The notes under the pieces: generated by a model | The model's input: the letters and a program-made list of their open reading frames with translations, nothing else | The model's database searches: none | Told to the model about the DNA's origin: nothing | Shown here: piece after piece, positions 680 through 17,766 of the stretch | Layout: each line of letters opens with the position of its first letter | Position numbering within the stretch: position 1 is the stretch's first letter | Source of the DNA: Stenotrophomonas sp. 704A1 | GTDB taxonomy: Bacteria; Pseudomonadota; Gammaproteobacteria; Xanthomonadales; Xanthomonadaceae | Direction: 5' to 3' | DNA length: 64,000 bases | NCBI RefSeq assembly: GCF_030549525.1 | Contig: NZ_CP130831.1 | Coordinates: forward strand, 1,761,501 to 1,825,500 | Program-made: the position numbers and the translations under genes

Positions 680-954
680 AGAAGATCGTCCCATTCTTGC
701 TGGTGGCCGCGTTGACTGCCTGCGGCCAGTCCGAAACGCCTCAGAAGGCCAACACTTCGGAAGCGAATATCCCAACGGTGGAAGAACTGGCGGCCAATCC
801 CGAACGGCTCAAGGAACTGCGCCAGCAATGCAAGACCGACCGCCCGAAGCTCGGCGACGTGCTGTGCAATCGGGTGGCCGAAGCCACGCGCAAGCGGTTC
901 TATGGCGACGGCGAAACGCCGTACACGCCGCCGAAAGAACCGCCCAAGTTCTGA
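676..954 (+). CDS. EexN-family lipoprotein (putative entry exclusion)
   Basis: A 92-residue exported lipoprotein. Residues 1-16 form a short signal peptide ending in the lipobox LTAC, so Cys16 should be lipidated. The mature part contains NPERLKELRQQC and then RKRFYGDGETPYTPP (residues 72-86). Small lipoproteins of this type sit in trb regions and are annotated as entry-exclusion proteins by analogy with TrbK/EexN; function here is inferred from family and context. It starts within the stop of the LysR gene. The C-terminal motif recurs at the C-terminus of TrbJ encoded 7.5 kb downstream, which is unexpected. A terminator follows at 996-1030. Confidence 0.75.
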   Translation: MKKIVPFLLVAALTACGQSETPQKANTSEANIPTVEELAANPERLKELRQQCKTDRPKLGDVLCNRVAEATRKRFYGDGETPYTPPKEPPKF

Positions 955-995
955 TCGTTGGCGGTTCGCCGCATCGTCTTCATTTTTTGATCGAC

Positions 996-1030
996 ACGCC
1001 GCAATGCGCCTGCGCTTGCGGCGTTTTTCT
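996..1030 (+). terminator. Intrinsic terminator after the EexN-like gene
   Basis: A 9-bp stem (ACGCCGCAA with TTGCGGCGT) closes over an inner GCGC pairing and is followed by a run of five T. It lies in the 235-bp gap between the lipoprotein gene and traG. It should separate the LysR-lipoprotein unit from the traG-trb operon. Confidence 0.8.
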
Positions 1031-1189
1031 TTGGCTGGCTGTCGCACTCATTCTGTCTTTTTGCTCGACCTTTCTGCTGAAAACGGTCTTTGACCGGCAC
1101 TGACCCGGCACCGAACCTGACGCCTGCGGCACGCCCTTGTGTCGCTTCTTCCATGAGGAATCAGCGCAGGAGAAATCGGAGGCCAGGTC

Positions 1190-3193: not shown

Positions 3194-3654
3194 GCCACTA
3201 CCGCCTCAACCTGTTCATCCAGCCGGAGCACGCCAAGCGCCTGGACGAGCTGGCCGCCAAGAAAGGCGTATCCAAGTCCAGCATCGTCGCCGCTGCTTTG
3301 GCGTCCTGGCTGTCGCCGGACGCAGCAGACCAGCGCGAGGCGGCAGTCGCCAAGCGGCTGGATCGCCTGTCGCGCCAAGCCGAGCGCATGGAGCGCGACC
3401 AGAACATCCAGATCGAGACGCTGGCGCTGTTCATTCGCTACTACCTCACGGTCAGCACACCAGTTCCCGAGGCGCACCAAGAGGCTGCCCGCGCCCAGGG
3501 CAAGGCGCGCTTCGAGCAGTTCGTTGAACAGTTGGGCCGCCACCTGCTGCGCGGGCGCAGCCTGGTGCGTGACGTGGTGGAGGAACTGCACCCCGATCCG
3601 ATGCGAATGGAGGACGCGGCGGCAGCCGCGCAAGCGCAGGAGCGTGCGTCATGA
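3190..3654 (+). CDS. CopG-type ribbon-helix-helix protein in the transfer operon
   Basis: 154 residues. The N-terminal ~45 residues (YRLNLFIQPEHAKRLDEL followed by GVSKSSIVAAAL) fit the CopG/Arc ribbon-helix-helix fold: one beta strand and two helices that bind DNA as a dimer. The rest is a long charged helix (KRLDRLSRQAERMERDQ), probably for oligomerisation. It overlaps traG and trbB by 4 bases each, so it is co-translated with the mating machinery. It is likely a regulator or relaxosome accessory factor; target sites are unknown. Confidence 0.8.
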   Translation: MSHYRLNLFIQPEHAKRLDELAAKKGVSKSSIVAAALASWLSPDAADQREAAVAKRLDRLSRQAERMERDQNIQIETLALFIRYYLTVSTPVPEAHQEAARAQGKARFEQFVEQLGRHLLRGRSLVRDVVEELHPDPMRMEDAAAAAQAQERAS

Positions 3655-4703
3655 GCGCCGCTCCGCAGTCCATGAGCGCCACGTCGCTCGACCGCCGCAT
3701 CCAGATGCTGCGCACGGCGATGGGGCCGCTGATCGCCACCGCGCTCGAAGACCCGGACGTGATGGAAATCATGCTCAACCCCGATCGCACCCTGTGGGTG
3801 GATCGGCTGTCGTCGGGCCGCGCGCCGATGGGCGTGGAGATGCCCGAGGCCGATGGCGAGCGGATCATCCGCCTGGTCGCCGCCCACGTCGGCGCGGAGG
3901 TGCATCGCGGCCAGCCGCTGCTGTCGGCGGAACTGCCCGAAACCGGCGAACGCTTCGAGGGCATCTTGCCGCCGGCTGCGCCGGGGCCGGCCTTCGCATT
4001 GCGCAAGCGGGCCATCGGTGTGATCCCGCTGGAGCGGTACGTCATCGACGGGATGATGACCAGCGTCCAAGCGGGCTTTCTCGTTCGCGCCGTGCGCGAG
4101 CGGCAGAACGTCTTGATCGCCGGTGCCACCAGCAGCGGCAAAACTACACTCGCCAATGCGCTGCTGGCCGAGATCGCCGCCACTGGCGACCGCGTGCTGG
4201 TGCTCGAAGACACGGTGGAGCTGCAATGCGCGGCCCGCGACCACGTACCGCTGCGCACGCGCGCAGGTGTGGTGTCCATGACGGAGCTGGTGCGTTCGTC
4301 CATGCGCCTGCGCCCGGATCGTGTCGTCGTCGGCGAGGTGCGCGGCGCCGAGGCGCTGGATCTCATCAAGGTGTGGGGCACGGGCCACCCCGGCGGCATC
4401 GCAACGATCCACGCCGGCTCCGCGCTCGGCGCACTGCTGCGCCTGGAGCAATTGATTCTCGAAGTGGCGGTGAACCCGCCCCGTGCGCTGATCGCCGAGG
4501 CGGTCAACGTGGTGATCCACATCGCCGGGCGCGGACGCAAGCGCCGCATCGAGAGCATCGCGCGCGTCGTCGGCTTCGACGGCGTGGGCTACCAACTGGC
4601 GGACGCGCTGGAAACGCCGTTTCCCGAGCTGCCGCCGATCCCCGATGCCGCACCCGCTGCGGCGACTTTCCCATCCCCTGACTCACTTGGAGAACTGCCA
4701 TGA
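3651..4703 (+). CDS. trbB: P-type conjugative transfer ATPase TrbB (VirB11-like)
   Basis: 350 residues, the expected size for the VirB11/TrbB hexameric secretion ATPase that powers the type IV channel at the cytoplasmic face. Walker A GATSSGKT lies at residues 158-165. The Asp box VLVLEDTVEL, the Walker B-like segment RPDRVVVGEVRG and the His box GTGHPGG followed by IATIHAGS are all present, so the enzyme should be active. It overlaps the CopG-like gene and trbC by 4 bases each. Confidence 0.96.
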   Translation: MSAAPQSMSATSLDRRIQMLRTAMGPLIATALEDPDVMEIMLNPDRTLWVDRLSSGRAPMGVEMPEADGERIIRLVAAHVGAEVHRGQPLLSAELPETGERFEGILPPAAPGPAFALRKRAIGVIPLERYVIDGMMTSVQAGFLVRAVRERQNVLIAGATSSGKTTLANALLAEIAATGDRVLVLEDTVELQCAARDHVPLRTRAGVVSMTELVRSSMRLRPDRVVVGEVRGAEALDLIKVWGTGHPGGIATIHAGSALGALLRLEQLILEVAVNPPRALIAEAVNVVIHIAGRGRKRRIESIARVVGFDGVGYQLADALETPFPELPPIPDAAPAAATFPSPDSLGELP

Positions 4704-5092
4704 CGCAGACGACCGTTCCTGCTTTCCGTGTTTCCGTAAATCCGCCTTCGCACCTGTTCAACCTGGCGCGGTTGCGCAGCCTGGCCCGCCCTGCGGAGCA
4801 AGGGCTGCTGCTGGCCGCGCTGCTGCTGTTCCTGGCCGGAACCGCACAGGCTGCCGGTTCCTCGATGCCGTGGGAAGGCCCGCTGCAATCCATTCTCGAA
4901 TCCATCCAGGGGCCGGTGGCGCGCATCGTCGCGGTCATCATCATCATCGCCACGGGCCTCGCGCTCGCCTTCGGCGATACGTCGGGCGGCTTCCGCAAGC
5001 TGATCCAGATCGTGTTCGGTCTGTCCATCGCGTTCGCAGCTTCGAGCTTCTTCCTGTCGTTCTTCAGCTTCTCCGGCGGGGCTGTCGTATGA
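4700..5092 (+). CDS. trbC: TrbC/VirB2-type pilin
   Basis: 130 residues. A long N-terminal signal region (hydrophobic around residues 32-50, ending near AGTAQAAG) is followed by two hydrophobic helices, about residues 70-90 and 98-120. This is the layout of VirB2/TrbC prepilins, which are processed and assembled into the conjugative pilus. The gene overlaps trbB upstream and trbD downstream as ATGA. Confidence 0.9.
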   Translation: MTQTTVPAFRVSVNPPSHLFNLARLRSLARPAEQGLLLAALLLFLAGTAQAAGSSMPWEGPLQSILESIQGPVARIVAVIIIIATGLALAFGDTSGGFRKLIQIVFGLSIAFAASSFFLSFFSFSGGAVV

Positions 5093-5361
5093 GTGCCCCC
5101 GACACCTTCGCGGACGGCTTCGAGGTGCCGCTGCATCGGTCGCTCACGGAGCCGATCCTGCTTGGCGGTGCGCCGCGCACCGTGGCGATTGCCAACGGCA
5201 CGCTGGCCGCCGCTGTCGGGCTGGGCCTGCAACTGTGGATTCCGGGTGTGGTGCTCTGGATCGTCGGCCATTCGCTGGCGGTGTGGGGAGCGCGCGTCGA
5301 TCCGCAGTTCATGGCCGTGTTCGCCCGGCACATCAAGCACCGCCCGCTGCTGGACGTGTGA
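5089..5361 (+). CDS. trbD: TrbD/VirB3-type membrane protein
   Basis: 90 residues with one hydrophobic hairpin at roughly residues 38-65. The N-terminal segment FEVPLHRSLTEPILLGGAPR is typical of TrbD/VirB3. These proteins sit in the inner membrane and work with the VirB4-type ATPase in pilus assembly. The start ATG overlaps the trbC stop; a longer upstream reading frame is a different-frame artefact. trbE follows after 12 bases. Confidence 0.92.
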   Translation: MSAPDTFADGFEVPLHRSLTEPILLGGAPRTVAIANGTLAAAVGLGLQLWIPGVVLWIVGHSLAVWGARVDPQFMAVFARHIKHRPLLDV

Positions 5362-5373
5362 GGGGACGCCGCC

Positions 5374-7827
5374 ATGCTGAACCTTGCCGAATACCGCCAG
5401 CGCCCGGCCTTGCTCGCCGACTGGCTGCCGTGGGCTGGATTGGTTGCGCCGGGCGTCGTCTTGAACAAGGACGGCAGTTTCCAGCGCACGGCCCGGTTTC
5501 GCCGGCCTGACCTCGACAGCGCGACGCAAGGCGAGCTGATTGCCACGTCAGCGCGATTGAACAACGCATTGCGCCGCATGGGTTCGGGCTGGGCGCTGTT
5601 CATCGAAGCCGAGCGCCGGCTTGCCGCCGACTATCCGCACTCGGAGTTCCCCGAGCCGCTGTCGTGGCTCGTGGAGGAAGAACGCCGGGCCACGTTCGAG
5701 GAATCGGGCAGCCACTTCGAGAGCGGCTATCACCTGACGCTGGTGTACCTGCCGCCCGAAGAATCCCGTGCCCGTGCAGCCAAGATGCTCTACGAGAACA
5801 CGCCGACGAATGGCGTGGACTGGCGCGAGCGGCTGCAAGCCTTCGTCGCGGAGACGGATCGCGTCTTTGACCTGCTCGATGGCGTGATGCCGGAAATCGC
5901 CTGGCTCGATGACAGCCAGACGTTGACCTACCTGCACGCCACCATCTCGACGCGACGCTACCGCGTCGGCGTGCCCGAAGTGCCGTTCCACCTCGATGCG
6001 TTGCTGACCGATTCCGCCCTGGTCGGCGGGCTGGCGCCCATGCTGGGCGACCAGCACCTGCGCGTGGTGTCGGTGCGGGGCTTCCCGACCTCGACCTGGC
6101 CGGGGATTCTGGATGACCTCAACCGCCTCGGCTTTGCCTACCGCTGGAGCACGCGCTTTCTCTGCCTGGACAAAGCCGAGGCGGAACGGGAGTTGGGACG
6201 CCTGCGCCGCCAGTGGTTCGCCAAGCGCAAGAACGTCATCGCGCTCCTGCGCGAAACGATCTTCCAGCAAGAAAGCCCGCTGGTCGATACCGACGCCAGC
6301 AACAAGGCGGCCGACGCCGACGCAGCCTTGCAGGAGCTGGGCAGCGATCAAGTTGCCTTCGGCTACTTCACCGCCACGGTGACGGTGCTCGATGCCGACC
6401 CGGCCGTGGCCGACGAGAAGCTGCGCATGGTGGAGCGTGTCATTCAAGGACGCGGCTTCATCACCATCCCGGAAACGCTCAACGCCGTGGATGCGTGGCT
6501 GTCGTCCATTCCGGGCAACGCCTACGCCAACGTGCGTCAGCCCATCGTCTCGACGCTGAACCTGGCGCACATGATGCCCCTGTCGGCGGTATGGGCCGGG
6601 CCGGAGAAGAACGACCACCTCGACGGCCCTCCGCTGATCGTTACTCGCACCGATGGCGCGACGCCGTTCCGGCTGGTCACGCACATCGGCGACGTGGGCC
6701 ACACGCTGGTCGCGGGGCCGACCGGCATGGGCAAGTCGGTTTTTCTCGCCACGCTGGCAATGCAGTTCCGCCGCTATCGCGGCTCGCGCATCTTCGCGTT
6801 CGACATGGGCCGCTCGATGCGCGCCACGGTTCTCGGGTTGGGCGGCGAGCACTACGACCTCGGGACGGATGGCGAAATCGCCTTCCAGCCATTGGCACGC
6901 ATCGACCGCGAAGGCTACCGCACCTGGGCGGCCGAATGGATCGAAGGCCGCTTGCTGCATGAGGGCGTGGCGGTCGGCCCCGACGAGAAGGCGGCTATCT
7001 GGTCGGCGTTGGGAAGCCTCGCCGGTGCGCCGTTGGAGCAGCGCACGATGACGGGGCTTTCCGTGCTGCTGCAATCGAACACGCTGCGGCAGGCGCTGTC
7101 GCCCTATGTGCTCGGCGGTGCCCACGGCAAGCTGCTGGACGCCGACCATGACCGGCTCGGCATGGCCAACGTGCAGTGCTTCGAGATGGAGGAGCTGATG
7201 CACAGCAAGGCCGCCGTCATGGCCGTGCTGCATTACCTCTTTGCGCGCTTCGATGAACGCTTCGACGGTGCGCCCACGCTGCTGATCCTAGATGAAGCGT
7301 GGCTGTTCCTCGATGACCCGGTGTTTGCCGCGCGTATCCGGCAATGGCTCAAGACGCTCAGGAAAAAGAACGTCAGCGTCATCTTCTCCACGCAGAGCCT
7401 CGCGGACGTCAAGGAATCGAGCATCGCGCCCGCGATCATCGAGAGCTGCGCGAGCCGCATTTTCCTCGCCAACCCGCAGGCGACCGAGCCGCAGATTCGC
7501 ACGATCTACGAGGGCTTCGGCCTCAACAGGCGGCAGATCGAAATCGTCGCCACCGCGCAGCCCAAGCGCGACTACTACTACCAATCCCGCCTCGGCAACC
7601 GCCTGTTCGACCTCGACCTGGGGCCGGCGACGCTGGCGTTCGCGGGTGCTTCCACGCCGCAGGATCAGCGCGACATAGACCGCGTGCTGCTGGACGCCGG
7701 CGTGCCCGGCTTCGCGGGCGCCTGGCTGCGCCATCGCGGCCTCGATTGGGCGGCCGAGCTGCTGCCCTCGTTCCCCGGCCTTGCGCCGGGTTCCCTCGCT
7801 GACCAACCCCTGGAGAACCTGCCATGA
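5374..7827 (+). CDS. trbE: TrbE/VirB4-type ATPase
   Basis: 817 residues, full length for the TrbE/VirB4 family, which drives pilus assembly and substrate transfer at the inner membrane. An N-terminal CagE/TrbE/VirB domain is followed by a C-terminal ATPase with Walker A GPTGMGKS near residue 448 and Walker B LLILDEAW near residue 637-644. SVIFSTQSLAD and the late ASRIFLANP segment are also typical. It overlaps trbJ by 4 bases. Confidence 0.96.
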   Translation: MLNLAEYRQRPALLADWLPWAGLVAPGVVLNKDGSFQRTARFRRPDLDSATQGELIATSARLNNALRRMGSGWALFIEAERRLAADYPHSEFPEPLSWLVEEERRATFEESGSHFESGYHLTLVYLPPEESRARAAKMLYENTPTNGVDWRERLQAFVAETDRVFDLLDGVMPEIAWLDDSQTLTYLHATISTRRYRVGVPEVPFHLDALLTDSALVGGLAPMLGDQHLRVVSVRGFPTSTWPGILDDLNRLGFAYRWSTRFLCLDKAEAERELGRLRRQWFAKRKNVIALLRETIFQQESPLVDTDASNKAADADAALQELGSDQVAFGYFTATVTVLDADPAVADEKLRMVERVIQGRGFITIPETLNAVDAWLSSIPGNAYANVRQPIVSTLNLAHMMPLSAVWAGPEKNDHLDGPPLIVTRTDGATPFRLVTHIGDVGHTLVAGPTGMGKSVFLATLAMQFRRYRGSRIFAFDMGRSMRATVLGLGGEHYDLGTDGEIAFQPLARIDREGYRTWAAEWIEGRLLHEGVAVGPDEKAAIWSALGSLAGAPLEQRTMTGLSVLLQSNTLRQALSPYVLGGAHGKLLDADHDRLGMANVQCFEMEELMHSKAAVMAVLHYLFARFDERFDGAPTLLILDEAWLFLDDPVFAARIRQWLKTLRKKNVSVIFSTQSLADVKESSIAPAIIESCASRIFLANPQATEPQIRTIYEGFGLNRRQIEIVATAQPKRDYYYQSRLGNRLFDLDLGPATLAFAGASTPQDQRDIDRVLLDAGVPGFAGAWLRHRGLDWAAELLPSFPGLAPGSLADQPLENLP

Positions 7828-8549
7828 AGAAGCGTCTTATCGCCGCCGCCATCGCGGCCATGCTTTGCACCGCCACCGCCCATGCGCAATGGGTCGTAGT
7901 CGATCCCACCAACCTCGTGCAGAACACGCTGACCGCGATCCGCACGCTGGAGCAGATCAACAACCAGATCCAGCAGCTCCAGAACGAAGCGCAGATGCTG
8001 ATGAACCAAGCGCGCAACCTCGCCAGCCTGCCGTCCAGCGTGGCGAACCAGTTGCGCGCCAATCTGGCGACGACCGAGCGACTGATCGCCCAGGCTCGCG
8101 GCTTGGCCTACGACGTGACGAATCTGGATCGGGAGTTCGCGCGCCTGTATCCCGAGCAGTACGCCGCCACCGTCAGCGGCGACCAGATGTACCGCGATGC
8201 GCAGGAGCGTTGGCGAAACACGCTCAACGGCTTGCAGACCACGATGCAGATGCAGGCGCAGGTGTCGCAGAACCTGGGCGAAGACGAAAGCGTGCTGGCC
8301 GACCTCGTGGGCAAGAGCCAGTCGGCCCAAGGCGCGCTGCAAGCGATGCAGGCCATGAACCAACTGCTGGCCTTGCAGGCCAAGCAGTCGATCCAGTCGC
8401 AGAGGCTCCAGATCACGCAAGACCGGGCCGCTTCGCTGGAGCTGGCACGTCAGGCGGCGGCCACGGAGCGCGCCCGCGAGGTACGCCGGCGTTTCATGGG
8501 CGACGGCACCCCGTACACGCCGCAGCGCGTGGATTTCTACGGCAACTGA
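7824..8549 (+). CDS. trbJ: TrbJ/VirB5-type minor pilus protein
   Basis: 241 residues with a cleavable signal peptide (about residues 1-22, ending ATAHA). The mature protein is mostly helical and rich in Gln, with long coiled-coil-like stretches (LEQINNQIQQLQNEAQML), as in TrbJ/VirB5, which sits at the pilus tip or base in the periplasm. The C-terminus carries RRRFMGDGTPYTPQ, almost the same motif as in the EexN-like lipoprotein encoded at 676. The next gene, a second EexN-like lipoprotein, starts 12 bases later, matching the trbJ-trbK arrangement of RP4. Confidence 0.9.
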   Translation: MKKRLIAAAIAAMLCTATAHAQWVVVDPTNLVQNTLTAIRTLEQINNQIQQLQNEAQMLMNQARNLASLPSSVANQLRANLATTERLIAQARGLAYDVTNLDREFARLYPEQYAATVSGDQMYRDAQERWRNTLNGLQTTMQMQAQVSQNLGEDESVLADLVGKSQSAQGALQAMQAMNQLLALQAKQSIQSQRLQITQDRAASLELARQAAATERAREVRRRFMGDGTPYTPQRVDFYGN

Positions 8550-8561
8550 CGGGAGGCCGCC

Positions 8562-8882
8562 ATGCGATACGTCCTCGCCCTGTGTGCCGCGCTGCTGGCC
8601 GCTTGCAGCGAACAGCCGGCCACCAACCTTCCCGATGCCCTGGCCGCCGATCCCGTGCGGCTCAAGGCATTGCGCGCGCAATGCGCCGCCGACCGGCAGG
8701 CCACGGGCGAGGACGCTTGCCGCGCCGCCGCCGAAGCCTTCCGGCGGCGCTTCTTCTCCGGCCAGGCCGGGCCGGATGAATACCAGACGCTGGCCGACCT
8801 GCCGCCGATCCCGCCCAGCTTCGAGGAACCGGCCGATGGCGTGGCGCCGGCCGTTCCCGCCGAACCGGAGGACACGCCATGA
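8562..8882 (+). CDS. EexN/TrbK-like lipoprotein (second copy)
   Basis: 106 residues. The signal peptide ends in lipobox LAAC at Cys15. The mature part (DPVRLKALRAQCAADR followed by AAEAFRRRFFSG) aligns by eye with the lipoprotein at 676 (NPERLKELRQQCKTDR), so the two are paralogues within one element. Its place between trbJ and trbL is that of trbK, the RP4 entry-exclusion lipoprotein, which supports an exclusion role; this is inference. It lacks the GDG-PYTP motif of the first copy. It overlaps trbL as ATGA. Confidence 0.75.
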   Translation: MRYVLALCAALLAACSEQPATNLPDALAADPVRLKALRAQCAADRQATGEDACRAAAEAFRRRFFSGQAGPDEYQTLADLPPIPPSFEEPADGVAPAVPAEPEDTP

Positions 8883-10261
8883 ATGACGTGACCATCATCG
8901 ACCAGTTCCTCAACACATTCGCCGCCTACATCGACTCGGGTTTCGGACTGCTGCGGAGCGAAGTGGCGTTCCTCACGGCCACGCTGATCGTCATCGACAT
9001 GACGATCGCCGGCCTGTATTGGGCCATGAGCCATGCCACCGGCCAAGGCGAGGACGTGATCGCCAAGCTGCTGCGCAAGGTGCTCTACGTCGGTGCCTTC
9101 GCCTACATCATCAACAACTTCAACTGGCTGGCCAGCATCGTGTTCCGCTCGTTTGCGGGACTAGGCATCACCGCCACCGGCTCGGCCATCACGATGGAGA
9201 ACTTCTTGCAGCCGGGCCGGCTGGCGAAAACTGGCCTTGACGCGGGCGGGCCGATCTTCCTTCAGCTCGACGACATGATGGGATTTCCCGAGGTGTTCTT
9301 GAACCTCGATGCCATCTTGGTGCTGTTCATCGCTTGGCTGGTCGTGGTGCTCTGCTTCTTCGTGCTGGCGATCCAGCTTTTCATCACGCTGATCGAGTTC
9401 AAGCTGACCACGCTCGCCGGCTTCGTGCTGGTGCCGTTCGCGCTGTGGAACAAGACGAGCTTTCTGGCGGAAAAGGTGCTGGGCAACGTCGTGGCCTCCG
9501 GCGTCAAGGTGCTGGTGTTGGCCGTGATCGTCGGTATCGGCTCGGGCCTGTTCACTCAATTCCAAGTCCATCCCGATGAGCCGTCCCTCGACCATGCGCT
9601 GGTCATCATGCTGGCCTCGCTCACTTTGCTGGCGCTCGGGATCTTCGGCCCTGGCATCGCCACGGGCCTTGTGTCCGGTGCGCCGCAGCTCGGCGCGGGC
9701 GCGATGGCGGGCGCGGCCATCGGCGCAGCCGGAACGGCGGTGGCCGTCGGTGCCGCCGCAACTGGCGTGGGCGGTGCGGTGGCGGCTGGCGCGCGCATGG
9801 CCCCGGCTGCCGCCAAGCTGGCCGGCAGCGGTGCGCGCGCCGCCACGTCGGCGGCCAGCAGCGCGAAATCTGCGTTCCAGGCCGGTTCCGCCGCCGCCGG
9901 CGGTGGCGCGAAAGGCGCAATGGCCGGCCTAGGCAACGTCGCCAAGACCGGCGCGCAGGCAGCCGGGCGAGGCGCCGCATCCCGTGCCTCCGCTGTCGGG
10001 CAGCGCATGGCTGCTCCCTTCCGTGCTGGCTGGAATGGCGCTGCGGCTGACAGTGGCGCGGGTGCGGCATCCGGTCAGGGTGCCGGCGAGGCCACGCCCA
10101 GCGCCAGCAGCGCGCAGACGCAGGAACAACCTGCCTGGGCGAAACGACTGCATCGCCGCCAGCAGCTCACCCATGCCGCGACCACCACCGCCCACGCGCT
10201 GCGCGGTGGCGACGGCGGCGGCTCCGGCCAAGGGCCGAGCCTGCGCGATTCCGATTCATAA
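8879..10261 (+). CDS. trbL: TrbL/VirB6-type polytopic membrane protein
   Basis: 460 residues. The first ~270 residues hold about six hydrophobic helices (for example LVVVLCFFVLAIQLFITLI), forming the inner-membrane part of the mating channel. From about residue 275 the protein turns into a long Ala/Gly/Ser-rich low-complexity tail of ~185 residues, commonly seen in TrbL. The start overlaps the upstream lipoprotein gene; trbF begins 12 bases after the stop. Confidence 0.93.
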   Translation: MNDVTIIDQFLNTFAAYIDSGFGLLRSEVAFLTATLIVIDMTIAGLYWAMSHATGQGEDVIAKLLRKVLYVGAFAYIINNFNWLASIVFRSFAGLGITATGSAITMENFLQPGRLAKTGLDAGGPIFLQLDDMMGFPEVFLNLDAILVLFIAWLVVVLCFFVLAIQLFITLIEFKLTTLAGFVLVPFALWNKTSFLAEKVLGNVVASGVKVLVLAVIVGIGSGLFTQFQVHPDEPSLDHALVIMLASLTLLALGIFGPGIATGLVSGAPQLGAGAMAGAAIGAAGTAVAVGAAATGVGGAVAAGARMAPAAAKLAGSGARAATSAASSAKSAFQAGSAAAGGGAKGAMAGLGNVAKTGAQAAGRGAASRASAVGQRMAAPFRAGWNGAAADSGAGAASGQGAGEATPSASSAQTQEQPAWAKRLHRRQQLTHAATTTAHALRGGDGGGSGQGPSLRDSDS

Positions 10262-10273
10262 GGAGAACTGACC

Positions 10274-10978
10274 ATGCGATTCAAGAAACCGCAGGTGCGC
10301 TACGCCGACACGCCGCAGCCTGCCACGCCGTACCAAGCTGCCGGCCAGGTGTGGGACGACCGTATCGGCTCGCCGCGCGTGCAGGCGAAGAACTGGCGGC
10401 TGATGGCCTTCGGATGCCTGACGCTCGCGCTGCTGATGGCCGGCGGCCTGGTGTGGCGGTCAGCGCAGTCCATCGTGACGCCCTACGTCGTGGAGGTGGA
10501 CAACGCGGGCCAAGTGCGTGCGGTCGGCGAAGCAGCCACGCCCTACAAGCCCAGCGATGCGCAGACCGCGTACCACCTCGGCCGCTTCATCGGCTTGGTG
10601 CGCTCGCTGTCCATCGACCCCATCGTCGTGCGCCAGAACTGGCTCGACGCCTACGACTACACCACCGACAAGGGCGCGGCCGTGCTCAACGACTACGCGC
10701 GGGTCAACGACCCGTTCGCTCGCATCGGCAAGGAGTCGGTGACGGTGCAGATCACCAGCGTCGTGCGCGCCAGCGACACGTCTTTCAACGTGCGCTGGAC
10801 GGAACGCCGCTACGTCAACGGCGCCGCGGCGGGCCTGGAGCGGTGGACGGCCGTGGTGTCCATCGTGCTCCAACCGCCGCGCACCGAAGAACGCCTGCGC
10901 AAGAACCCCCTGGGCATCTACGTCAACGGCCTGTCATGGAGCCGCGAACTGGATTCTTCCGAAGGAGCCATGCCATGA
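10274..10978 (+). CDS. trbF: TrbF/VirB8-type inner-membrane protein
   Basis: 234 residues. A cytoplasmic N-terminus (~45 residues) is followed by one transmembrane segment (LMAFGCLTLALLMAGGLVW) and a periplasmic VirB8-like domain with RWTERRYVNG and LGIYVNGLSWSREL near the end. VirB8 homologues nucleate the periplasmic channel. A RBS (AAGGAG) lies before the ATG. It overlaps trbG by 4 bases. Confidence 0.94.
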   Translation: MRFKKPQVRYADTPQPATPYQAAGQVWDDRIGSPRVQAKNWRLMAFGCLTLALLMAGGLVWRSAQSIVTPYVVEVDNAGQVRAVGEAATPYKPSDAQTAYHLGRFIGLVRSLSIDPIVVRQNWLDAYDYTTDKGAAVLNDYARVNDPFARIGKESVTVQITSVVRASDTSFNVRWTERRYVNGAAAGLERWTAVVSIVLQPPRTEERLRKNPLGIYVNGLSWSRELDSSEGAMP

Positions 10979-11967
10979 ATGATCTTTTCCGTAATTCCGC
11001 TTTGCCGGTGATCCTGCTTGCCTTGGCGGGCTGCGCCACGCAGGGCAAGCCGCCGCCGACCATCTCACTCGATGAGCCGGTGCAGGCCCAGCCGCTGCCA
11101 GAGCCGCCCGCGCCGGTGGAGGTGGTGGCCGTGCCCGAGGTGCTGCCGATGCCCGCGCAGTTGAAGCCGTTGCCCGAAGCCGAGGACGCCAAACCTGTGC
11201 CGGAGCCGGCAGACGAGAAGGTGCGCGTTTCGCGTGCCAATGCCGAGGCGCGCGTCGCGCCCACGCGCGAGGGCTACGTCAACGCGATTCAGGTGTGGCC
11301 GTATAGCGATGGTGCGCTGTACCAAGTCTATGCAGCCGTGGGCCGCGTGACCGTGGTTTCGCTCCAGCCGGGCGAGGAGCTGGTGTCGGTGGCCGCCGGC
11401 GATACCGTGCGCTGGATCGTGGGCGACACATCGAGCGGCAGCGGCGCCGACCTGCGAGTGAACGTGCTGGTCAAGCCGATCCGCTCGGGCCTCAAGACCA
11501 ATCTCGTCATCACTACCAATCGCAGGACGTACCTGCTGGAGCTGGCCTCGACGGAAAAGACGTGGATGGCATCCGTGTCTTGGGAATACCCGCGCGACCG
11601 AATGCTGGCCTTGCAGCGCCAGGCGCAAGCGGCCAGCACCGCCGCGCCGGTCGATAGCGGGCTGGCGCTGGAGAACCTGCGCTTCCGCTATGCCATCAGC
11701 GGCAGCAATCCGCCGTGGAAGCCGCTGCGTGCCTTCGACGACGGGCAGAAGGTCTATATCCAGTTCCCGCCCGGTATCGCTCAGGGTGAATTGCCGCCCT
11801 TGTTCGTGATCGGGCCGGAAGGCGACGGGCAATTGGTCAATTACCGCTTCCGCTCGCCGTACTACATCGTGGATCGGCTATTCGGTGCCGCCGAACTGCG
11901 CCTGGGTGGCGACAAGGGCGACGTGGTGCGAATCGAGCGCACGGATAGCGTGGCACGGAGGAACTGA
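10975..11967 (+). CDS. trbG: TrbG/VirB9-type outer-membrane channel protein
   Basis: 330 residues. It starts at the ATG overlapping the trbF stop; this gives a signal peptide with a lipobox-like LAGCAT (Cys20), so it may be a lipoprotein. A Pro-rich linker (about residues 25-75) precedes the VirB9-like domain, with repeated beta strands such as VRWIVGDTSSG and LVITTNRRTYLLEL. With TrbI it should form the periplasm-spanning core complex. A longer in-frame upstream extension inside trbF is not needed. Confidence 0.93.
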   Translation: MNDLFRNSALPVILLALAGCATQGKPPPTISLDEPVQAQPLPEPPAPVEVVAVPEVLPMPAQLKPLPEAEDAKPVPEPADEKVRVSRANAEARVAPTREGYVNAIQVWPYSDGALYQVYAAVGRVTVVSLQPGEELVSVAAGDTVRWIVGDTSSGSGADLRVNVLVKPIRSGLKTNLVITTNRRTYLLELASTEKTWMASVSWEYPRDRMLALQRQAQAASTAAPVDSGLALENLRFRYAISGSNPPWKPLRAFDDGQKVYIQFPPGIAQGELPPLFVIGPEGDGQLVNYRFRSPYYIVDRLFGAAELRLGGDKGDVVRIERTDSVARRN

Positions 11968-11969
11968 CC

Positions 11970-13244
11970 ATGAGCCAGGACGACACCCCTGACCTCGCCA
12001 CGCCGCAGGCGGGCAAGGTCGCGCCCGAGGCGGTGGCGCTGCGCGCCCAGCCGCGCCCGGTCACGCGCCTGAATCGGCGCACGCTGGCCATCCTCGTCGG
12101 CGGCCTGTCGGTCGCCGTACTCGGGGCCACGATCTGGTCGCTGCAACCGCAGCGGCGCGGTGCCAATGAGCAGACCGAGCTTTACAACGTCGATCGCGTG
12201 TCGAAGTCCGAAGGGCTGGATGGCCTGCCTTCGGACTACTCGAAGATGCCGCCGAAGGTGCCCGAGCTGGGGCCGCCGCTGCCGGGTGATCTCGGCCCAG
12301 CCATCGTGAACTCGCAGCGGCCGGTGACGCCGACGTATGTACCGCCGGGCCATGACCCCGAGGATGCCTTGCGCAAGGAGGCCGACGCGGCGGCGGCCTC
12401 GTCGGTGTTCTTCCGCTCGGGCGGTCAAGGCCAGGCAGCCGCCACGGTGGCGCAGGCGGCGCCGGGTGCGCCTGGTGGTGCAAGCACGCTGGCGGCCTTC
12501 GATCCGCTCACCGCTGGGCCAGCCTCGACGGCGGCTCAGCCTGCCGACCCGACCGCCGTGCAGAACCGGCAAGACCAGAAAGAGGCGTTTCTGAAAGCCG
12601 GTTCTACGGAAACCCGCAATTCCGGCAATCTGGCGCTGCCGGCGTCGCCCTATCAGGTGATGGCTGGGACGGTGATCGCGGGCGCGCTGGTGACAGGCAT
12701 CAAGTCCGATCTTCCGGGCGACGTGATCGCCACGGTGACGGAGCCGGTCTATGACACGGCCACCGGCAAGTTCCTGCTGATCCCGCAGGGATCGCGCATC
12801 CTCGGACGCTACAACAGCCAGGTCAGCTACGGGCAGAGCCGCGTGCAGGTGGTGTGGAACCGGGTCATCCTGCCTGACACGTCCTCGCTGACGCTCGACA
12901 ATCTTGTCGGCACCGACCCGGCCGGCTACGCCGGCCTGGAAGACGACGTGGACTGGCATTGGAATCGCATCGTCGCGGGCGCTGTGCTGACGACGCTGCT
13001 GGGCGTCGGCGCCGAGCTGGCTGCGCCGGAGAACCGCCAGGACGGCAACCGCATCGTCATCTCCGGGCGCGACAGCGCACAGGACAGCATCAATCAGGTC
13101 GGACAGGAGATCACCCGGCGCAACATGAACATCCAACCGACGCTGACCACGCGGCCGGGCCTGCCGGTGCGGATCATCGTCAATCGGGATCTGGTGCTGC
13201 GGCCTTACCAACCGCTGTTCTTCAATCGGGGAGCTTCGCAATGA
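11970..13244 (+). CDS. trbI: TrbI/VirB10-type core channel protein
   Basis: 424 residues. The N-terminal cytoplasmic part is followed by one transmembrane helix (LAILVGGLSVAVLGATIW, about residues 33-50), a Pro/Ala-rich periplasmic linker, and a C-terminal VirB10 domain beginning near PYQVMAGTVIAGALVTGI and including LLIPQGSRILGRYNS. This protein bridges the inner and outer membranes. It starts 2 bases after trbG and overlaps the next small gene by 4 bases. Confidence 0.95.
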   Translation: MSQDDTPDLATPQAGKVAPEAVALRAQPRPVTRLNRRTLAILVGGLSVAVLGATIWSLQPQRRGANEQTELYNVDRVSKSEGLDGLPSDYSKMPPKVPELGPPLPGDLGPAIVNSQRPVTPTYVPPGHDPEDALRKEADAAAASSVFFRSGGQGQAAATVAQAAPGAPGGASTLAAFDPLTAGPASTAAQPADPTAVQNRQDQKEAFLKAGSTETRNSGNLALPASPYQVMAGTVIAGALVTGIKSDLPGDVIATVTEPVYDTATGKFLLIPQGSRILGRYNSQVSYGQSRVQVVWNRVILPDTSSLTLDNLVGTDPAGYAGLEDDVDWHWNRIVAGAVLTTLLGVGAELAAPENRQDGNRIVISGRDSAQDSINQVGQEITRRNMNIQPTLTTRPGLPVRIIVNRDLVLRPYQPLFFNRGASQ

Positions 13245-13462
13245 GCACGACCAAGAAGCTGCGGCTCGGGCCGCTGCCCAAGACCGAGAACGTCAAGCTG
13301 ACGTTCGCTTGCCCGGCCAGCCTGAAAGCCGACCTCGACCGCTACGCCGCGCTGCACGCGCAGACGTATGGCGAGCCGGTCGACACCATGACGCTGATCC
13401 CGCATATGCTGGAGGCGTTCATGGCGGGGGACCGGGGGTTTCGCAGGAAGCGATCAGGGTAA
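13241..13462 (+). CDS. DUF2274 protein, last gene of the trb operon
   Basis: 73 residues. The sequence KLRLGPLPKTENVKLTFACP followed by LKADLDRYAALHAQTYGEPV is typical of the DUF2274 proteins found directly after trbI in many conjugative elements. The central segment resembles a ribbon-helix-helix DNA-binding unit, so a regulatory role is possible but unproven. The ATG overlaps the trbI stop. It is convergent with the downstream helicase gene, only 42 bases away; no clear terminator was seen between them. Confidence 0.85.
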   Translation: MSTTKKLRLGPLPKTENVKLTFACPASLKADLDRYAALHAQTYGEPVDTMTLIPHMLEAFMAGDRGFRRKRSG

Positions 13463-13504
13463 GGGTAGTCGCACTGCTGCTTCAAGACCGAAGCGACCTT
13501 GCTC

Positions 13505-15238
13505 CTAGAGTTGATGCCCTTGCAGCAAGGCGGTTGGAGTGAACATATCGCAAAGCATCAGCACATGATGCTTGGCGCGGGTGATGCCAACCCGCGCCAG
13601 TTTGCGGCAACGAGGGTGAGGCGCAGCCTCTTGAGTGAAAAGCAGAGGGCTGCTGTTCGGATCGTCGAAAATGATTGCTGCGTCGAACTCCTTGCCCTTC
13701 GACTTGTGAATGGTCATGACGTGGATACCTCTCAGGTCGTTGCCGCCTGACAAGAGCTGGTCTTCCGCGATGGCCGTATCAAGCGCACCGCGCGCATTTC
13801 GATACGCTCCCTGCGTTTGCCAAAGTTCGGTCAGTGCTGCTGAGATACGGCGGCCACGCTGGAAGGCGACGAGCTGCTCGGCATCCTCTGCTATGACTTG
13901 AAGCGGGTTGGCGCCTGCGTTACGAAGAATGCTGCGCGCATCCAACCAATCCCGTTTCGGGTCTCCCGAGAACTCGTGTATGCGCAATGTACGTAGCGCA
14001 TCCAAGAGCTTGGATGCCACTCCGTTAGCGCGCGGGGAAGTGCCACCGCGGCTTTGTACGGCGCTTGCTGCCAACCGCTGCGCGGTGGCAAGGTTGGTAT
14101 TTCCGCCGCGTGCCCGGAAGACCGTCGCCGCAAGGTCAAGGCCGTCTGCCAAGTCCAGCAGTTCCTCCGCTGCCGGCCTGCGCGGCTCCAGCATAAACGC
14201 GACCATGCGACTCGAAAGCAGCACCGATGCTTCATCAATCATCACTCGATGCGGGATCAAGTTCGCGCCATTACCAGTCAGAGCACGGGAAACGACGTTG
14301 ACACCGCGCCCCCATGTTGCCAGTACGGCCAAGCTCTCGATGTCGCCCTGGGCGGCCTCCTTTGCGCGCTGAATGGCGATTCCGATTGCTTGGCGGATCG
14401 CGCGATCACGGTACTCTCGGTTGGCGCGATAGTTTATGCGTGATACACCCTGGTAAGCCGCGCCTCTCGGTGTGTTCAGTAGCACGTCGTTGGCGAAGGC
14501 GACGATTTCTGAATTAGGACTCCGGTGATTCTCGCCTGCCAGATCCACGCGTAGCGGTTGCAAGGCGGCCATGATGTGCGTTACTCGGTCTGAGCTGACG
14601 CCCGGCCGGAAGTCGTAAATCTGCTGGTCCAAGTCGGCGAGGCACATCATTTGCGTGCCAGCGGATAGCAGTCGAACACACTGCCACTGATCTTCTGCTG
14701 TGTCTTGCGCCTCATCCACAACGATCAACGGATAGCACGACGAGAACAGCTCGCGCAGGCGTGCGCTTCGAGACAGTAGTTCGTGAGCCTTCGGAGCGAA
14801 CAGGTCGAATGCGACCCTCCCTGTTTCCCGAAACAATCGTTGGCGCTCGACATTCCAATCGCCACCATTGTTCTCGAACTCGTGGCGCATCGCCGCCTCA
14901 TCATGAGGCATTAGTAGACGCAACGACTTTGGCGCGCCCAGCAAGTATCCGTATGCCTGCAAGATGCGCCAGAAGAACGAGTGGAACGTCTGGATTGAGA
15001 GCTTTCCTTGCAGAGCGGCAGGCAACTGCGTCTTACTCGCTTCGGCGACGCGCGCCACAGCAGCACGCGAGAAGCTGAGAAAAAGAACAGACTGACCAAG
15101 TGAAAGGCCCCGTTCGATAACGAGTCTGGCCTTTGCCAAAGCGATGGTCGTCTTGCCGCTGCCTGGGCCGCCCGTAACGAGGATCGCACCGTTCTCGTCG
15201 AGAATGCTCTGTCGCTGCGCACAGATGACCAGGGCCAT
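13505..15238 (-). CDS. gajB: UvrD/PcrA-type SF1 helicase of a Gabija-like defence pair
   Basis: 577 residues with a full SF1A helicase motif set: Walker A GGPGSGKT at residues 23-30, motif II DEAQD at 175-179, LADLDQQIYDFR near 200, ENHRSPN, IHVMTIHKSKGKEFD near 515 and RVGITRAKHH near 553. It lies 3 bases after the OLD nuclease gene on the same strand. An OLD-type ATPase/TOPRIM nuclease followed by a UvrD-like helicase is the class 2 OLD arrangement, to which Gabija belongs. It is longer than the original GajB of about 494 residues, so the symbol marks similarity of arrangement, not orthology. Confidence 0.85.
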   Translation of the reverse strand: MALVICAQRQSILDENGAILVTGGPGSGKTTIALAKARLVIERGLSLGQSVLFLSFSRAAVARVAEASKTQLPAALQGKLSIQTFHSFFWRILQAYGYLLGAPKSLRLLMPHDEAAMRHEFENNGGDWNVERQRLFRETGRVAFDLFAPKAHELLSRSARLRELFSSCYPLIVVDEAQDTAEDQWQCVRLLSAGTQMMCLADLDQQIYDFRPGVSSDRVTHIMAALQPLRVDLAGENHRSPNSEIVAFANDVLLNTPRGAAYQGVSRINYRANREYRDRAIRQAIGIAIQRAKEAAQGDIESLAVLATWGRGVNVVSRALTGNGANLIPHRVMIDEASVLLSSRMVAFMLEPRRPAAEELLDLADGLDLAATVFRARGGNTNLATAQRLAASAVQSRGGTSPRANGVASKLLDALRTLRIHEFSGDPKRDWLDARSILRNAGANPLQVIAEDAEQLVAFQRGRRISAALTELWQTQGAYRNARGALDTAIAEDQLLSGGNDLRGIHVMTIHKSKGKEFDAAIIFDDPNSSPLLFTQEAAPHPRCRKLARVGITRAKHHVLMLCDMFTPTALLQGHQL

Positions 15239-15241
15239 GGC

Positions 15242-17077
15242 TTACAGTTCCTCGGGGTCATCGGCCGCGGCCGCGTTGTCACCTGCAGCTTCTGCTCCGG
15301 CATCGACCTGCGCGGCAGGTGCTTCCTTGCGCTTCGGCTTTGGATAGCGTTGGTAGATGTCGGCGAGGAAGTCGGTAATGGTCTTGGGCAACTCGGCCAC
15401 GGCACACAGTTGCAGCAGCTTTGCCGCACCACCTTCGCCTTTCAGGCCCTTCAATGTGGAAGTGGTCAGCTTGCGTAATTCGTCGTCAGCGGGGCGGGCC
15501 GCCGGAATCCCAAACCGGCCGTCGGCATCCTCGGTGCGTAGGGCCTCCAAATACTGCCATTGCCGATCCAAGGGGGTTTCCTCAGCCATCAGCACTTCGG
15601 CACCTTTTTGCTGGATTTCTTTGGCTACCACGTAGCTACCTTGCAAGGTGGCGATTTCCGCATCCGTGCGCTTTTTGCGGTCGAAGAAGGCAAAGGCTGG
15701 AGTCCCGATTTCCTTGAAGAAGGCCCCCAACTTTTCCAGGTTCCCGTCACCATCGGCATTGATGACAGACAGGCCGGCCACGTCCAAGGGGAACAGGGCC
15801 GGATCACTGTCTTCCATCTTCTGCGCGACCACCAACAAGGCATCCTGTTCGGTGATGCCTTCACCGACGATCACGCCTTGCCCGAGCATGGCTTCGGCGA
15901 TGGCTCGGCGAAAGTTTTGTCGGTAGTTCTTGGCCTTCATGCCAGCCGGCAGCTTGATCGCCGTGCCGCTCAAGGTGCCGTGTTGGTCGCGGTTGAGCTT
16001 CAGTATCCCGTCAGGCTCGAAACGCTCGATGACGTATGGCGAGTGCGATGTAACGAAGCACTGCGAAGTTTTTTCGAGTAGGTAGTTCGCAATCCGCCGC
16101 TGTGTATGGGGCGGAAGGGCGATCTCGGGTTCTTCCATCGCAAAGATGACGTTGTCTTTCTTAAGTTCGGCGATAAAGGTCAGCAGCGCCAGCAGGAGCG
16201 TGTTCAATGTTCCGCTGCCGGTCTGTTGGAACGGGACGGCTTCCTCTCCACGCCCCATCGTCAAGAAGAAAGCGATGGTCTTCCGCAGGTGCTCACGCGT
16301 GAGCTGGGAGACGAACAGACGGGTCGAACGCCCCTCGCTGCCGGGCGCGATGTATTCCGCCAGCCTTGCCTCGATTTCATCGAGGATCGGCCCCAGCTCG
16401 GTAGCGTCAGCGTCTATCGGAGGATCAAGAGTAGCCAGACGCTTGCGAATGCTCTCCCACATCCCCTTGCGGGCTTCTTTCATGCGCAGGATGTTGTCGA
16501 GCAGCGTGCCGCGCTCCAAGCTCAATGCACGCGAGCCGGTGCGGATGGTGCGCAGGTAAAGAAAGCCTATCGCTCGTTTGACCTTAGTGGGAATTGACCT
16601 GGGATCGGCGTCGTCATCGTCGTCGCTTCGGCCATAGATCGTTTTGGCGAAGAACTGGTCCTCTTCGATGTCGTATTGAGCAGCGGTAATCAGGCGAAGG
16701 CAGAGTTCCACGTTGGGGTCGTCGGCGTTACCAATCTCACCTTCGCCGAGAACCCGCTTGTCGGCCTTGTGCCAGAACTCCAGATTGGCGGCGCAGAGCT
16801 TCTTGATGTCGTCGGTGAGATCAACGAGGACGACTTCGATGCGGAGAGGAACGGGTGTTTCGCCGTCTTCGTTCAGATAGCCTGCATTACGGAAATCGAA
16901 CTCCTCAACGGGGGGTGTTCGATTCAGGCGATCCGGCCCAAGCACAAGATCGAGTGCTTCGCAGATCGTGCTCTTGCCGACGTTGTTGCCCCCGATCAGG
17001 AGCGTATGCCCTGAGAAGTGAAGTTCGGCTTTCTTGATGCCGCGGAAGTTCTCTATCCCCAACCGTGAGACGCGCAT
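15242..17077 (-). CDS. gajA: OLD-family ATPase/TOPRIM nuclease of a Gabija-like defence pair
   Basis: 611 residues. The N-terminal ABC/SMC-type ATPase has Walker A GGNNVGKS (29-36), a signature-like QTGSGTLN (285-292), Walker B VIFAMEEPEI (310-319) and a switch His in SHSP (344-347). The C-terminal TOPRIM domain has Glu406/Glu410 in VGEGITEQD, Asp442/Asp444 in INADGDGN and Asp466 in FFDRKK, so both enzymatic sites look intact. The last ~35 residues are a Lys then Ala/Asp/Glu tail. Family members nick phage DNA when nucleotide pools drop. The gene pair is the last recognisable cargo before the tRNA region. Confidence 0.88.
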   Translation of the reverse strand: MRVSRLGIENFRGIKKAELHFSGHTLLIGGNNVGKSTICEALDLVLGPDRLNRTPPVEEFDFRNAGYLNEDGETPVPLRIEVVLVDLTDDIKKLCAANLEFWHKADKRVLGEGEIGNADDPNVELCLRLITAAQYDIEEDQFFAKTIYGRSDDDDDADPRSIPTKVKRAIGFLYLRTIRTGSRALSLERGTLLDNILRMKEARKGMWESIRKRLATLDPPIDADATELGPILDEIEARLAEYIAPGSEGRSTRLFVSQLTREHLRKTIAFFLTMGRGEEAVPFQQTGSGTLNTLLLALLTFIAELKKDNVIFAMEEPEIALPPHTQRRIANYLLEKTSQCFVTSHSPYVIERFEPDGILKLNRDQHGTLSGTAIKLPAGMKAKNYRQNFRRAIAEAMLGQGVIVGEGITEQDALLVVAQKMEDSDPALFPLDVAGLSVINADGDGNLEKLGAFFKEIGTPAFAFFDRKKRTDAEIATLQGSYVVAKEIQQKGAEVLMAEETPLDRQWQYLEALRTEDADGRFGIPAARPADDELRKLTTSTLKGLKGEGGAAKLLQLCAVAELPKTITDFLADIYQRYPKPKRKEAPAAQVDAGAEAAGDNAAAADDPEEL

Positions 17078-17200
17078 GATGCCCCCAAGAGTCCTTGCTA
17101 TTGTTGTTGCGACTACATGGTCGCCTTGCTTCCTTCATCTTCCAAACTACTGCACGCTCCCGGTAGCTCGTTGAAAGATAAAGCATCATCGAGCATTGAC
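17078..17200. other. AT-richer spacer between the defence operon and the tRNA terminator
   Basis: This holds the upstream region of the leftward defence operon. It is visibly less GC-rich than the chromosome to the right. I see no gene and no convincing promoter or attachment repeat. The reading frames across it are short. Confidence 0.5.
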
Positions 17201-17233
17201 AACAAAAGCCGCCCCTGCAGAGGCAGGGACGGC
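17201..17233 (-). terminator. Intrinsic terminator of the intron-containing tRNA-Leu
   Basis: Read on the minus strand, an 11-bp stem (GCCGTCCCTGC with GCAGGGGCGGC, one G-U pair) closes a CTCT loop and is followed by TTTTGTT. It begins 9 bases after the CCA end of the tRNA. Confidence 0.9.
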
Positions 17234-17241
17234 TTCCAAAT

Positions 17242-17552
17242 TGGTGCCCGAGGCCGGAATCGAACCGGCACGCCTTGCGGCGAGGGATTTTCTTACCACT
17301 TCGGCTTTCGCCGCCAGCGCATGCGCCGTTCGTGGTCTGGAGCACGCCTTCACCATAGCCTTGCGGCCGTAGGTGCCCGCCGTCTGCTCTCTACACCTTC
17401 CCAGGCGTTGGACCTGGGCTTGGTTCGGCGTTGGCTCGGATGCCGGAGCATCCAGGGCGTTCGCCGACTTTGACGGGCTTCACCTCTGGGGTTTCCCCCG
17501 GAGGGCTCAAATTGTTCAAGTCCCTTGTGTCTACCAATTTCACCACTCGGGC
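17242..17552 (-). tRNA. tRNA-Leu(UAA), interrupted by a group I intron
   Basis: Read on the minus strand. The 5' exon (17552-17518, 35 nt) begins GCCCGAGTGGTGAAATTGG and ends GGGACTT; the 3' exon (17291-17242, 50 nt) begins AAAATCCCT and ends TCGGGCACCA. Joined, they give an 85-nt class II tRNA: 7-bp acceptor stem, D arm, anticodon stem AGGGA/TCCCT with loop CTTAAAA (anticodon UAA), a long variable arm, T loop TTCGATT, and encoded CCA. The exons are separated by 226 nt at the boundary between U34 and A35, the position used by cyanobacterial and plastid tRNA-Leu(UAA) introns. No strong promoter lies directly upstream; transcription may come from the promoter at 17767. Confidence 0.93.
17292..17517 (-). 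ncRNA. Group I self-splicing intron (IC3-like), 226 nt, no ORF
   Basis: Read on the minus strand. It follows the exon terminal U and ends with G, as group I introns do. P1 forms between exon CTT and intron GAG, with a U-G pair at the splice site and three flanking G-C pairs. P2 is a hairpin with a GAAA loop (about 17483-17504). The R segment GAAGGTGTAGAGAGCAGACG and the S segment AAGGCGTGCTCC resemble the Azoarcus tRNA-Ile intron. P7 pairs GAGCA (17389-17385) with TGCTC (17344-17340), a compensatory change from the GACUA/UAGUC of Azoarcus. L9 is a GAAA loop (17303-17312). It is too short to encode a homing endonuclease. Confidence 0.93.
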
Positions 17553-17710
17553 GTGGCGCGACGCGCTGAAAACTCCTACCTCTCTACTGACTCCTAGTTG
17601 ACCCCTGACCACCAAGCCCAGCCATGAAGCCAAGTCTTGAATGCTCGCAAGCCATTGTCTCTATTGGCCTTCTGGCCAGGTGGCGCAAGTGGAAAGGACT
17701 TGACAAAACA
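17553..17710. other. Spacer between the two tRNA-Leu sequences; probable right-end sequence of the mobile element
   Basis: No gene is seen. The stretch is noticeably less GC-rich than the chromosome to the right. Near its right edge GGACTT (17695-17700) forms an inverted repeat with AAGTCC (17717-17722), the latter inside the truncated tRNA. That is a possible recombinase binding arrangement. Assignment to the mobile element is inference. Confidence 0.45.
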
Positions 17711-17751
17711 GATTTTAAGTCCGATGCGTCTACCAGTTTCGCCATCCGGGC
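17711..17751 (-). pseudogene. Truncated tRNA-Leu(UAA): 5' half only
   Basis: Read on the minus strand from 17751: GCCCGGATGGCGAAACTGG, then the D arm and an anticodon arm with TCGGACTTAAAATC (anticodon TAA). After 17711 the sequence stops matching a tRNA: there is no variable arm or T loop of usual form, and no TCCGGGC to close the acceptor stem anywhere before the next tRNA. A promoter-like TACAAT remains upstream. The break lies in the anticodon arm, a common integrase target. It cannot make a functional tRNA. Confidence 0.8.
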
Positions 17752-17766
17752 CTGCAGCGCGCGCCG

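Follow-up and report, generated by a model that had tools for sequence, protein, structure and literature searches.

A group I intron within the replacement tRNA-Leu(UAA) gene of a putative integrative and conjugative element lodged in a split host tRNA gene

Group I introns are known in cyanobacterial tRNA-Leu(UAA) and in Azoarcus tRNA-Ile. Published accounts, in the portions available to us, describe group I introns in tRNA-Ile2 of Acidovorax and Burkholderia (PMC8450103) and introns in tRNA-Leu-TAA of Beggiatoa and Thiomargarita, so that gammaproteobacterial tRNA-Leu introns are already on record (PMC4853749). A separate body of work concerns mobile elements and tRNA genes: the genomic islands treated by Islander restore the tRNA at one end (PMC4383910); tRNA-dependent lysogeny of actinobacteriophages, established by experiment in 2024, uses a short core, leaves the tRNA unrebuilt and requires a cognate tRNA carried by the phage (PMC10865867); and in Sinorhizobium prophage tRNAs substitute for host ones (PMC11476347). 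The word "intron" occurs once in the text of PMC10865867, in a reference title, and is absent from that of PMC11476347.

The locus that we describe here, from Stenotrophomonas sp. 704A1, shares features with each of these systems. As in tRNA-dependent lysogeny, going by the accessible text of PMC10865867, a tyrosine integrase is associated with an attB in a tRNA gene, a short core and a carried cognate tRNA, but here the element is a predicted integrative and conjugative element (ICE), lies outside the Actinobacteria and has a group I intron in its replacement tRNA. It has a tyrosine integrase at a tRNA gene, as do the islands in the available description of Islander (PMC4383910), whereas here neither tRNA half is restored and the tRNA is replaced by a gene of its own elsewhere on the element. 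Finally, as in known bacterial cases, a group I intron splits a tRNA, here in the anticodon loop, but in the available text of PMC8450103 and PMC4853749 the intron-bearing tRNA is not tied to an element that broke the host copy. Within the accessible text of the open-licence literature searched, we found no report of a replacement tRNA that a mobile element carries and a group I intron splits, nor this combination with an ICE, which would extend tRNA-dependent integration from phages to conjugative elements of that kind.

The window analysed, a stretch of 64,000 nucleotides, holds on its minus strand at 17552-17242 two tRNA halves with 226 nt between them and the break in the anticodon loop, and we confirm it as a tRNA-Leu(UAA) gene whose anticodon loop is split by a group I intron. 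Its parts are as follows.

17518..17552, minus strand: 5' exon of the element-borne tRNA-Leu(UAA), 3' terminus ..GGGACTT
17292..17517, minus strand: group I intron, 226 nt, P1-P9, final base G
17242..17291, minus strand: 3' exon, starting AAAATCCC.. and running to the encoded CCA
17340..17389, minus strand: P7, strands GAGCA (17389-17385) and TGCTC (17344-17340)
17376..17381 and 17472..17477, minus strand: P3, with its 3' strand (17381-17376) between the P7 strands and its 5' strand at 17477-17472
17209..17226, minus strand: hairpin resembling a terminator, with a T-rich tail, downstream of the tRNA, a consensus match only

An earlier note on this DNA had placed an intron-split tRNA-Leu(UAA) at these positions, and ARAGORN bears it out: with introns allowed, it calls tRNA-Leu(taa) with a spliced length of 85 nt, an intron of 226 nt and the junction between gactt and aaaat, and the spliced product forms a cloverleaf with a UAA anticodon and a long variable arm. 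In its default mode the program calls nothing at 17552-17242, its sole call in the window being a tRNA-Ser. Upstream of the gene we found no promoter-like site; the intron is predicted to splice out of the pre-tRNA.

That the intron belongs to group I had been made to hang on an Rfam match, which failed to appear: RF00028 gave no match at the gathering level in the window, none up to E 10 in 17100-17900 and none at E 0.001 over the whole genome. The group I claim stands nonetheless, because RF00028 at the gathering level also missed all 16 of the sampled loci that carry related introns and because covariation is strong; we therefore take the model, a detection aid for group I introns and no defining trait of them, to be insensitive for this one. 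Intron-split tRNA genes of this class are thus overlooked both by ARAGORN in default mode and by Rfam.

The covariation comes from an alignment of 75 intron-bearing tRNA genes (74 distinct), taken from 109 parsed genes after removal of entries with a wrong start, of some near-duplicates and of the long form from Burkholderia. Over a 67-pair structure spanning P1-P9 and the P3/P7 pseudoknot, 98.1% of cells were paired versus 83.0% in shuffles, 39 pairs had changed on both sides versus 30.0, and the covariation score was 0.413 versus 0.145, a value equalled in none of 500 shuffles. Sliding the partners by 1-3 columns lowered pairing to 30-46%, in a comparison that favours the unslid version because the window sequence served as the template for the structure. 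Covariation was seen in P2, P3, P4, P5, P7 and P8, and P2-P8 lie outside the search pattern that found most of the aligned sequences; that pattern comprised P9b, the intron end and the 3' exon start, where conservation, including that of the last G, proves nothing. The two helices of the pseudoknot covary across the 75 genes, with changes on both sides in four of six P3 pairs (99.8% of cells paired) and in three of five P7 pairs (100% of cells paired). The P7 changes among relatives are CG 44 / GC 30, UA 45 / CG 29 and AU 61 / GC 10 / UA 3. In the window copy every one of the core pairings P1, P3, P4, P6, P7 and P9 is present, and the minimum free energy z-score is -3.08. The core may resemble that of Azoarcus, of subgroup IC3.

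At the 5' splice site (alignment columns 35/66), 66 of the 74 distinct rows have U.G and eight have C.G; a separate pattern-based count of this site was dropped as evidence, as the pattern itself demanded U or C. In the tRNA-Leu(CAA) introns of L053, L113, L173 and L174, C replaces U at this position, giving C.G and not U.G. The last intron base is G in the window copy (ARAGORN) and in 54 of 54 viral tRNA-Leu introns, which were found by a core pattern; for the genome loci described below, this G was built into the search.

The intron-bearing gene starts about 160 bp inside the end of a larger element. With G000 denoting the genome that contains the window, the features of the element and of the host tRNA that it interrupts are these.

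17711..17751, minus strand: 41-nt 5' half of the host tRNA-Leu(UAA) that the element has split, breaking off after ..GGACTTAAAATC into TGTTTTGTCAAGTCC
17711..17719, minus strand: 9-bp core CTTAAAATC, common to both element ends
17553..17710, minus strand: element end TGTTTTGTCAAGTCC.., kept in related elements
1..17719: window part of the predicted 56.4-kb ICE (whole element G000:C1:1722794-1779219)
1190..3193, plus strand: TraG coupling protein
3651..4703, plus strand: TrbB ATPase
5374..7827, plus strand: TrbE
7824..8549, plus strand: TrbJ
8879..10261, plus strand: TrbL
11970..13244, plus strand: TrbI (Pfam TrbI above cut-off; NCBIfam models below theirs)
13505..15238, minus strand: GajB (Gabija, UvrD-type helicase; E 4.6e-205)
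15242..17077, minus strand: GajA (Gabija; E 4.1e-236)

The host tRNA 3' half lies at G000:C1:1722748, about 56.4 kb from the 5' half, and is preceded by an unrelated ..CTCTGG followed by the core. The two halves flank the element with 56,417 bp between them, and joining the flanks yields an 87-nt tRNA identical to the tRNA in 18 of 25 loci of relatives. Neither element end rebuilds the host tRNA, because the ends have only the 9-bp core in common. The site thus lies in a tRNA gene, with a short core, a tRNA left unrebuilt and a cognate tRNA on the element, as in tRNA-dependent integration. A tyrosine integrase (Phage_integrase and Arm-DNA-bind_3) adjoins the host 3' half, and the element also encodes an RlxS-like relaxase (E 6.8e-196, below the curated cut-off) and a ParB-like protein, likewise scoring below its curated cut-off. 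With an integrase, this relaxase, a coupling protein and genes of a type IV secretion system (T4SS) between direct repeats, the 56.4-kb element is, as judged from its genes, an ICE. In its trb-type conjugation genes, RlxS-type relaxase and ParB-like protein it may resemble the Tn4371-like ICEs. GajA and GajB are adjacent and form a Gabija defence pair (13505-17077) beside the tRNA at the element end. The intron-bearing gene, which the earlier note had read as the host's own tRNA-Leu, belongs instead to this integrated element. Elsewhere in the window, 58154-58249 matches the Xanthomonas sRNA sX7 in Rfam.

We consider it highly probable that a 56.4-kb ICE integrated into the anticodon loop of the host tRNA-Leu(UAA) and that its own intron-bearing tRNA-Leu(UAA) supplies the lost function. 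Direct observation covers the split host gene, the element between its halves, the finding of no tRNA-Leu(UAA) other than the intron-bearing one, the covariation in the core and the recurrence of this arrangement elsewhere. We infer that the element's integrase would have recombined attP with the anticodon loop and thereby broken the host gene, that the element's own tRNA copy would be transcribed and that its intron would splice out, allowing the cell to survive. The cell would then depend on the element unless it excised exactly.

Such dependence is suggested by the tRNA complement of G000. Twelve tRNA matches, chosen for a long arm or for a weak score, were read and comprise Leu CAA, UAG, CAG (three) and GAG, together with Ser, Tyr and two not called by ARAGORN; no second tRNA-Leu(UAA) appeared among the long-arm tRNAs read or with a pattern for the intact tRNA. 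That pattern matched 56 of 61 genomes in a set of relatives that includes G000. The five unmatched genomes are G000, G061, G063, G071 and G082, and intron-bearing tRNA matches were long in G000, G061 and G071, partial (two) in G063 and weak in G082. An element-borne intron tRNA would account for the apparent absence of tRNA-Leu(UAA) from some genomes. UUA codons number 6 in 16755 across 41 element open reading frames (ORFs) and 1 in 10526 across 25 host-side ORFs, picked by a codon-position rule, and because they are so rare the cell's dependence could be mild. Another stretch of the same genome, G000:C1:4553600-4553760 (L047, L387), is tRNA-like with repeated T-arm-like hairpins and lies 5' of another gene, which we presume to be RtcB-like, making the stretch perhaps a Y-RNA-like RNA; a permuted-tRNA reading of G000:C1:4553648 was dropped.

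The arrangement recurs in other genomes. A genome scan with a pattern of the intron 3' end and the tRNA-Leu 3' exon found at least 119 stretches with a related intron-bearing tRNA-Leu, a number at odds with the rarity supposed by the earlier note, and the record titles of the listed stretches name Alpha-, Beta- and Gammaproteobacteria, Acidobacteria, Bdellovibrionales and others. In a strict scan, a broken tRNA-Leu 5' half lay within 2.2 kb upstream in 28 of the 119 listed loci and a broken half lay downstream in none of them; upstream sequence extended over at least 800 bases in 109 loci and at least 2100 in 91, so some halves may be missed in the 28 loci with less than 2.1 kb. A looser scan added two upstream halves (L061, L097). 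The isotype of the half was that of the intron-bearing tRNA in 28 of 28 cases, 25 UAA (one of which, L075, lacks one loop base) and three CAA, the CAA type making up only 11 of the 119 listed loci, with five not typable (L142 having been wrongly counted as typed).

By their structure, nine of the 28 loci are like the window, with TGTTTTGTCAAG-like ends (type A, to which the window and the same-genus L050, both outside the 119, also belong), four have AAAAAGTC-like ends (type B) and ten have a recombinase-like ORF between the half and the intron-bearing tRNA (type C), while L111 and L073 stand apart and the remaining three are tRNA-Leu(CAA) loci. The one type C ORF tested with Pfam gave only a weak match to Phage_int_SAM_3 (E 6.1e-6); from its C-terminal motif we take it to be a tyrosine recombinase. 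In a Variovorax locus (L084), 311 of 311 nt are identical to the window gene and lie beside a different host half, which indicates that the tRNA moved recently between hosts. The pattern for an intact tRNA-Leu(UAA) was unmatched in 25 of 29 element genomes, although absence is weak evidence for many of the genomes besides G000, whose assemblies are drafts or come from metagenomes. Of the four matches, two proved to be 3' halves at the opposite end of the element, one lay on an AT-rich, organelle-like contig and one was a real intact tRNA-Leu(UAA), which G124 has besides its intron copy.

Elements were also sampled by features other than the intron. Among 369 genomes searched with the family A end, only G000 matched. 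The family B end matched in 126 of 385 genomes, a level that by eye a reversed control resembled (uncounted), and of 30 loci fetched three passed a stricter re-scan and none had a tRNA half. The tRNA-Leu(CAA) end matched in ten of 399 genomes, and one of the ten loci (L356, in G1226) has a tRNA half, an intron-bearing tRNA-Leu(CAA) and a 3' half 67 kb further on. With the family A integrase, 300 genomes of the order of Variovorax yielded 11 matches in eight genomes: L314, with 92% identity, adjoins the 3' half of a tRNA-Leu(UAA), and its genome has an intron-bearing tRNA; L321 adjoins the 3' half of a tRNA-Leu(CAA), and its genome has a tRNA-Leu(CAA) that is apparently intact and free of an intron, while no intron copy was found there; and the other nine had no such 3' half within the fetched stretch. 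The family C integrase-like protein gave 12 matches in ten of 289 genomes, the query's own included, of which three lie by an intron-bearing tRNA-Leu, eight by tRNA-Met, tRNA-Arg or tRNA-Leu(UAG), and one where no tRNA was found.

Two accounts of the intron itself deserve weight. According to the first, which we hold at about even chances, the intron is a passenger: the intron-bearing version is common in the gene pool of phages and elements and has no role in integration. A viral scan gave at least 120 stretches, and 112 of the 120 listed (L194-L313) parse as intron-bearing tRNAs, a further result against rarity. Their isotypes by ARAGORN, all with anticodon-loop introns, are Leu, Arg, Phe, Met, Thr, Lys, Gln and Ser, and 21 calls of "Tyr(ata)" are read as mis-split Leu(UAA); a 2014 review, in the part available, places all phage introns observed to date in protein genes. 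The 10-mer spanning the joined exons recurs elsewhere in the viral stretch in five of 112 cases, versus six of 112 in a reversed control, and given this abundance in viral contigs with no link to attachment sites, elements may carry the intron version simply because it is the one in circulation. The anticodon loop hosts the group I introns of bacterial tRNAs as well as many integrase sites, which makes their overlap partly automatic, and the 119 loci were selected by their intron and hence are silent on elements with intronless replacements.

According to the second account, which we regard as somewhat less likely than not and for which the evidence is mixed, the intron hides the attachment core in the DNA and splicing restores it in the RNA. 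Having broken an essential tRNA gene, an element would have to bring a replacement, whose identical anticodon loop would again present the integrase core as a possible target; a core in the replacement could lead to self-integration, to splitting of the circular element and to tandem arrays. Because the core is the anticodon loop, it is not mutable in tRNA-Leu(UAA), and a replacement without the intron would hold the entire CTTAAAATC. Such introns recur in several element types, with both the UAA and the CAA isotype of tRNA-Leu, and phage Daredevil has one in its tRNA-Lys(UUU), which argues against a mere passenger. The intronless tRNA of phage Fionnbharth departs from that phage's attP-like site to either side of the loop (GCTTTTAAC versus ACTTTTAATC), which again argues against a passenger and fits a need to avoid the core; the intronless tRNA of phage Mollymur retains a 9-bp match to its attP-like site, which does not fit and favours the passenger. 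We do not claim a shield for phages in general, because the 112 viral stretches, Daredevil among the five that matched, gave no link to attachment sites. If true, the shielding of the core would be a testable reason for a self-splicing intron to persist, an essential gene being made a poor target for a travelling recombinase.

In Daredevil, a Gordonia phage (L192, NC_048021.1), ARAGORN in intron mode calls a tRNA-Lys(ttt) with a 238-nt intron at 42131-41820 on the minus strand, in an unannotated gap beside the integrase that we reached through a blastn match. An attP-like GGACTTTTAATCCGC lies about 155 bp from this tRNA, and its exons, if joined, would by visual comparison share 16 bp with the attP-like site of the phage itself. 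The gene bears on the published statement, in the available text, that Daredevil has no tRNA of its own, a figure legend there adding that it lacks tRNA-Ile2-CAT (PMC10865867). As for the clear plaques of this phage, the tRNA-Lys may not work, or they could have another cause.

That the intron-bearing gene of the window is a degenerate pseudogene, its intron no longer splicing and UUA being read otherwise, seems to us very improbable: the rarity of UUA would allow it, but the core helices are all formed, the Variovorax copy is identical and no other tRNA-Leu(UAA) was found among the tRNAs read or with the intact-tRNA pattern. Less probable still is that the host's own tRNA-Leu(UAA) gained a group I intron and that the nearby tRNA fragment is incidental, a view that could draw on the 91 of 119 listed intron loci without an upstream half within 2.2 kb but is refuted for this locus by host halves that sit at the two ends of one element, by flanks that rejoin into the tRNA of relatives and by the identity of the 311-nt gene in Variovorax.

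An intron-bearing tRNA-Leu(UAA) also occurs on the plasmid pCTX-M3 (L031:3780-4300), where a type B end lies in non-tRNA sequence that resembles an anticodon stem and is followed by the intron tRNA, which adjoins an AAA ATPase gene and aac(3)-IId. This stretch matches 1291 plasmid records, 1285 of them at 99% identity or more, and 645 of 5426 complete E. coli genomes; the match covers at least 80% of the query in 1225 of the plasmid records and in 578 of the genomes, the short matches containing only the tRNA 3' end.
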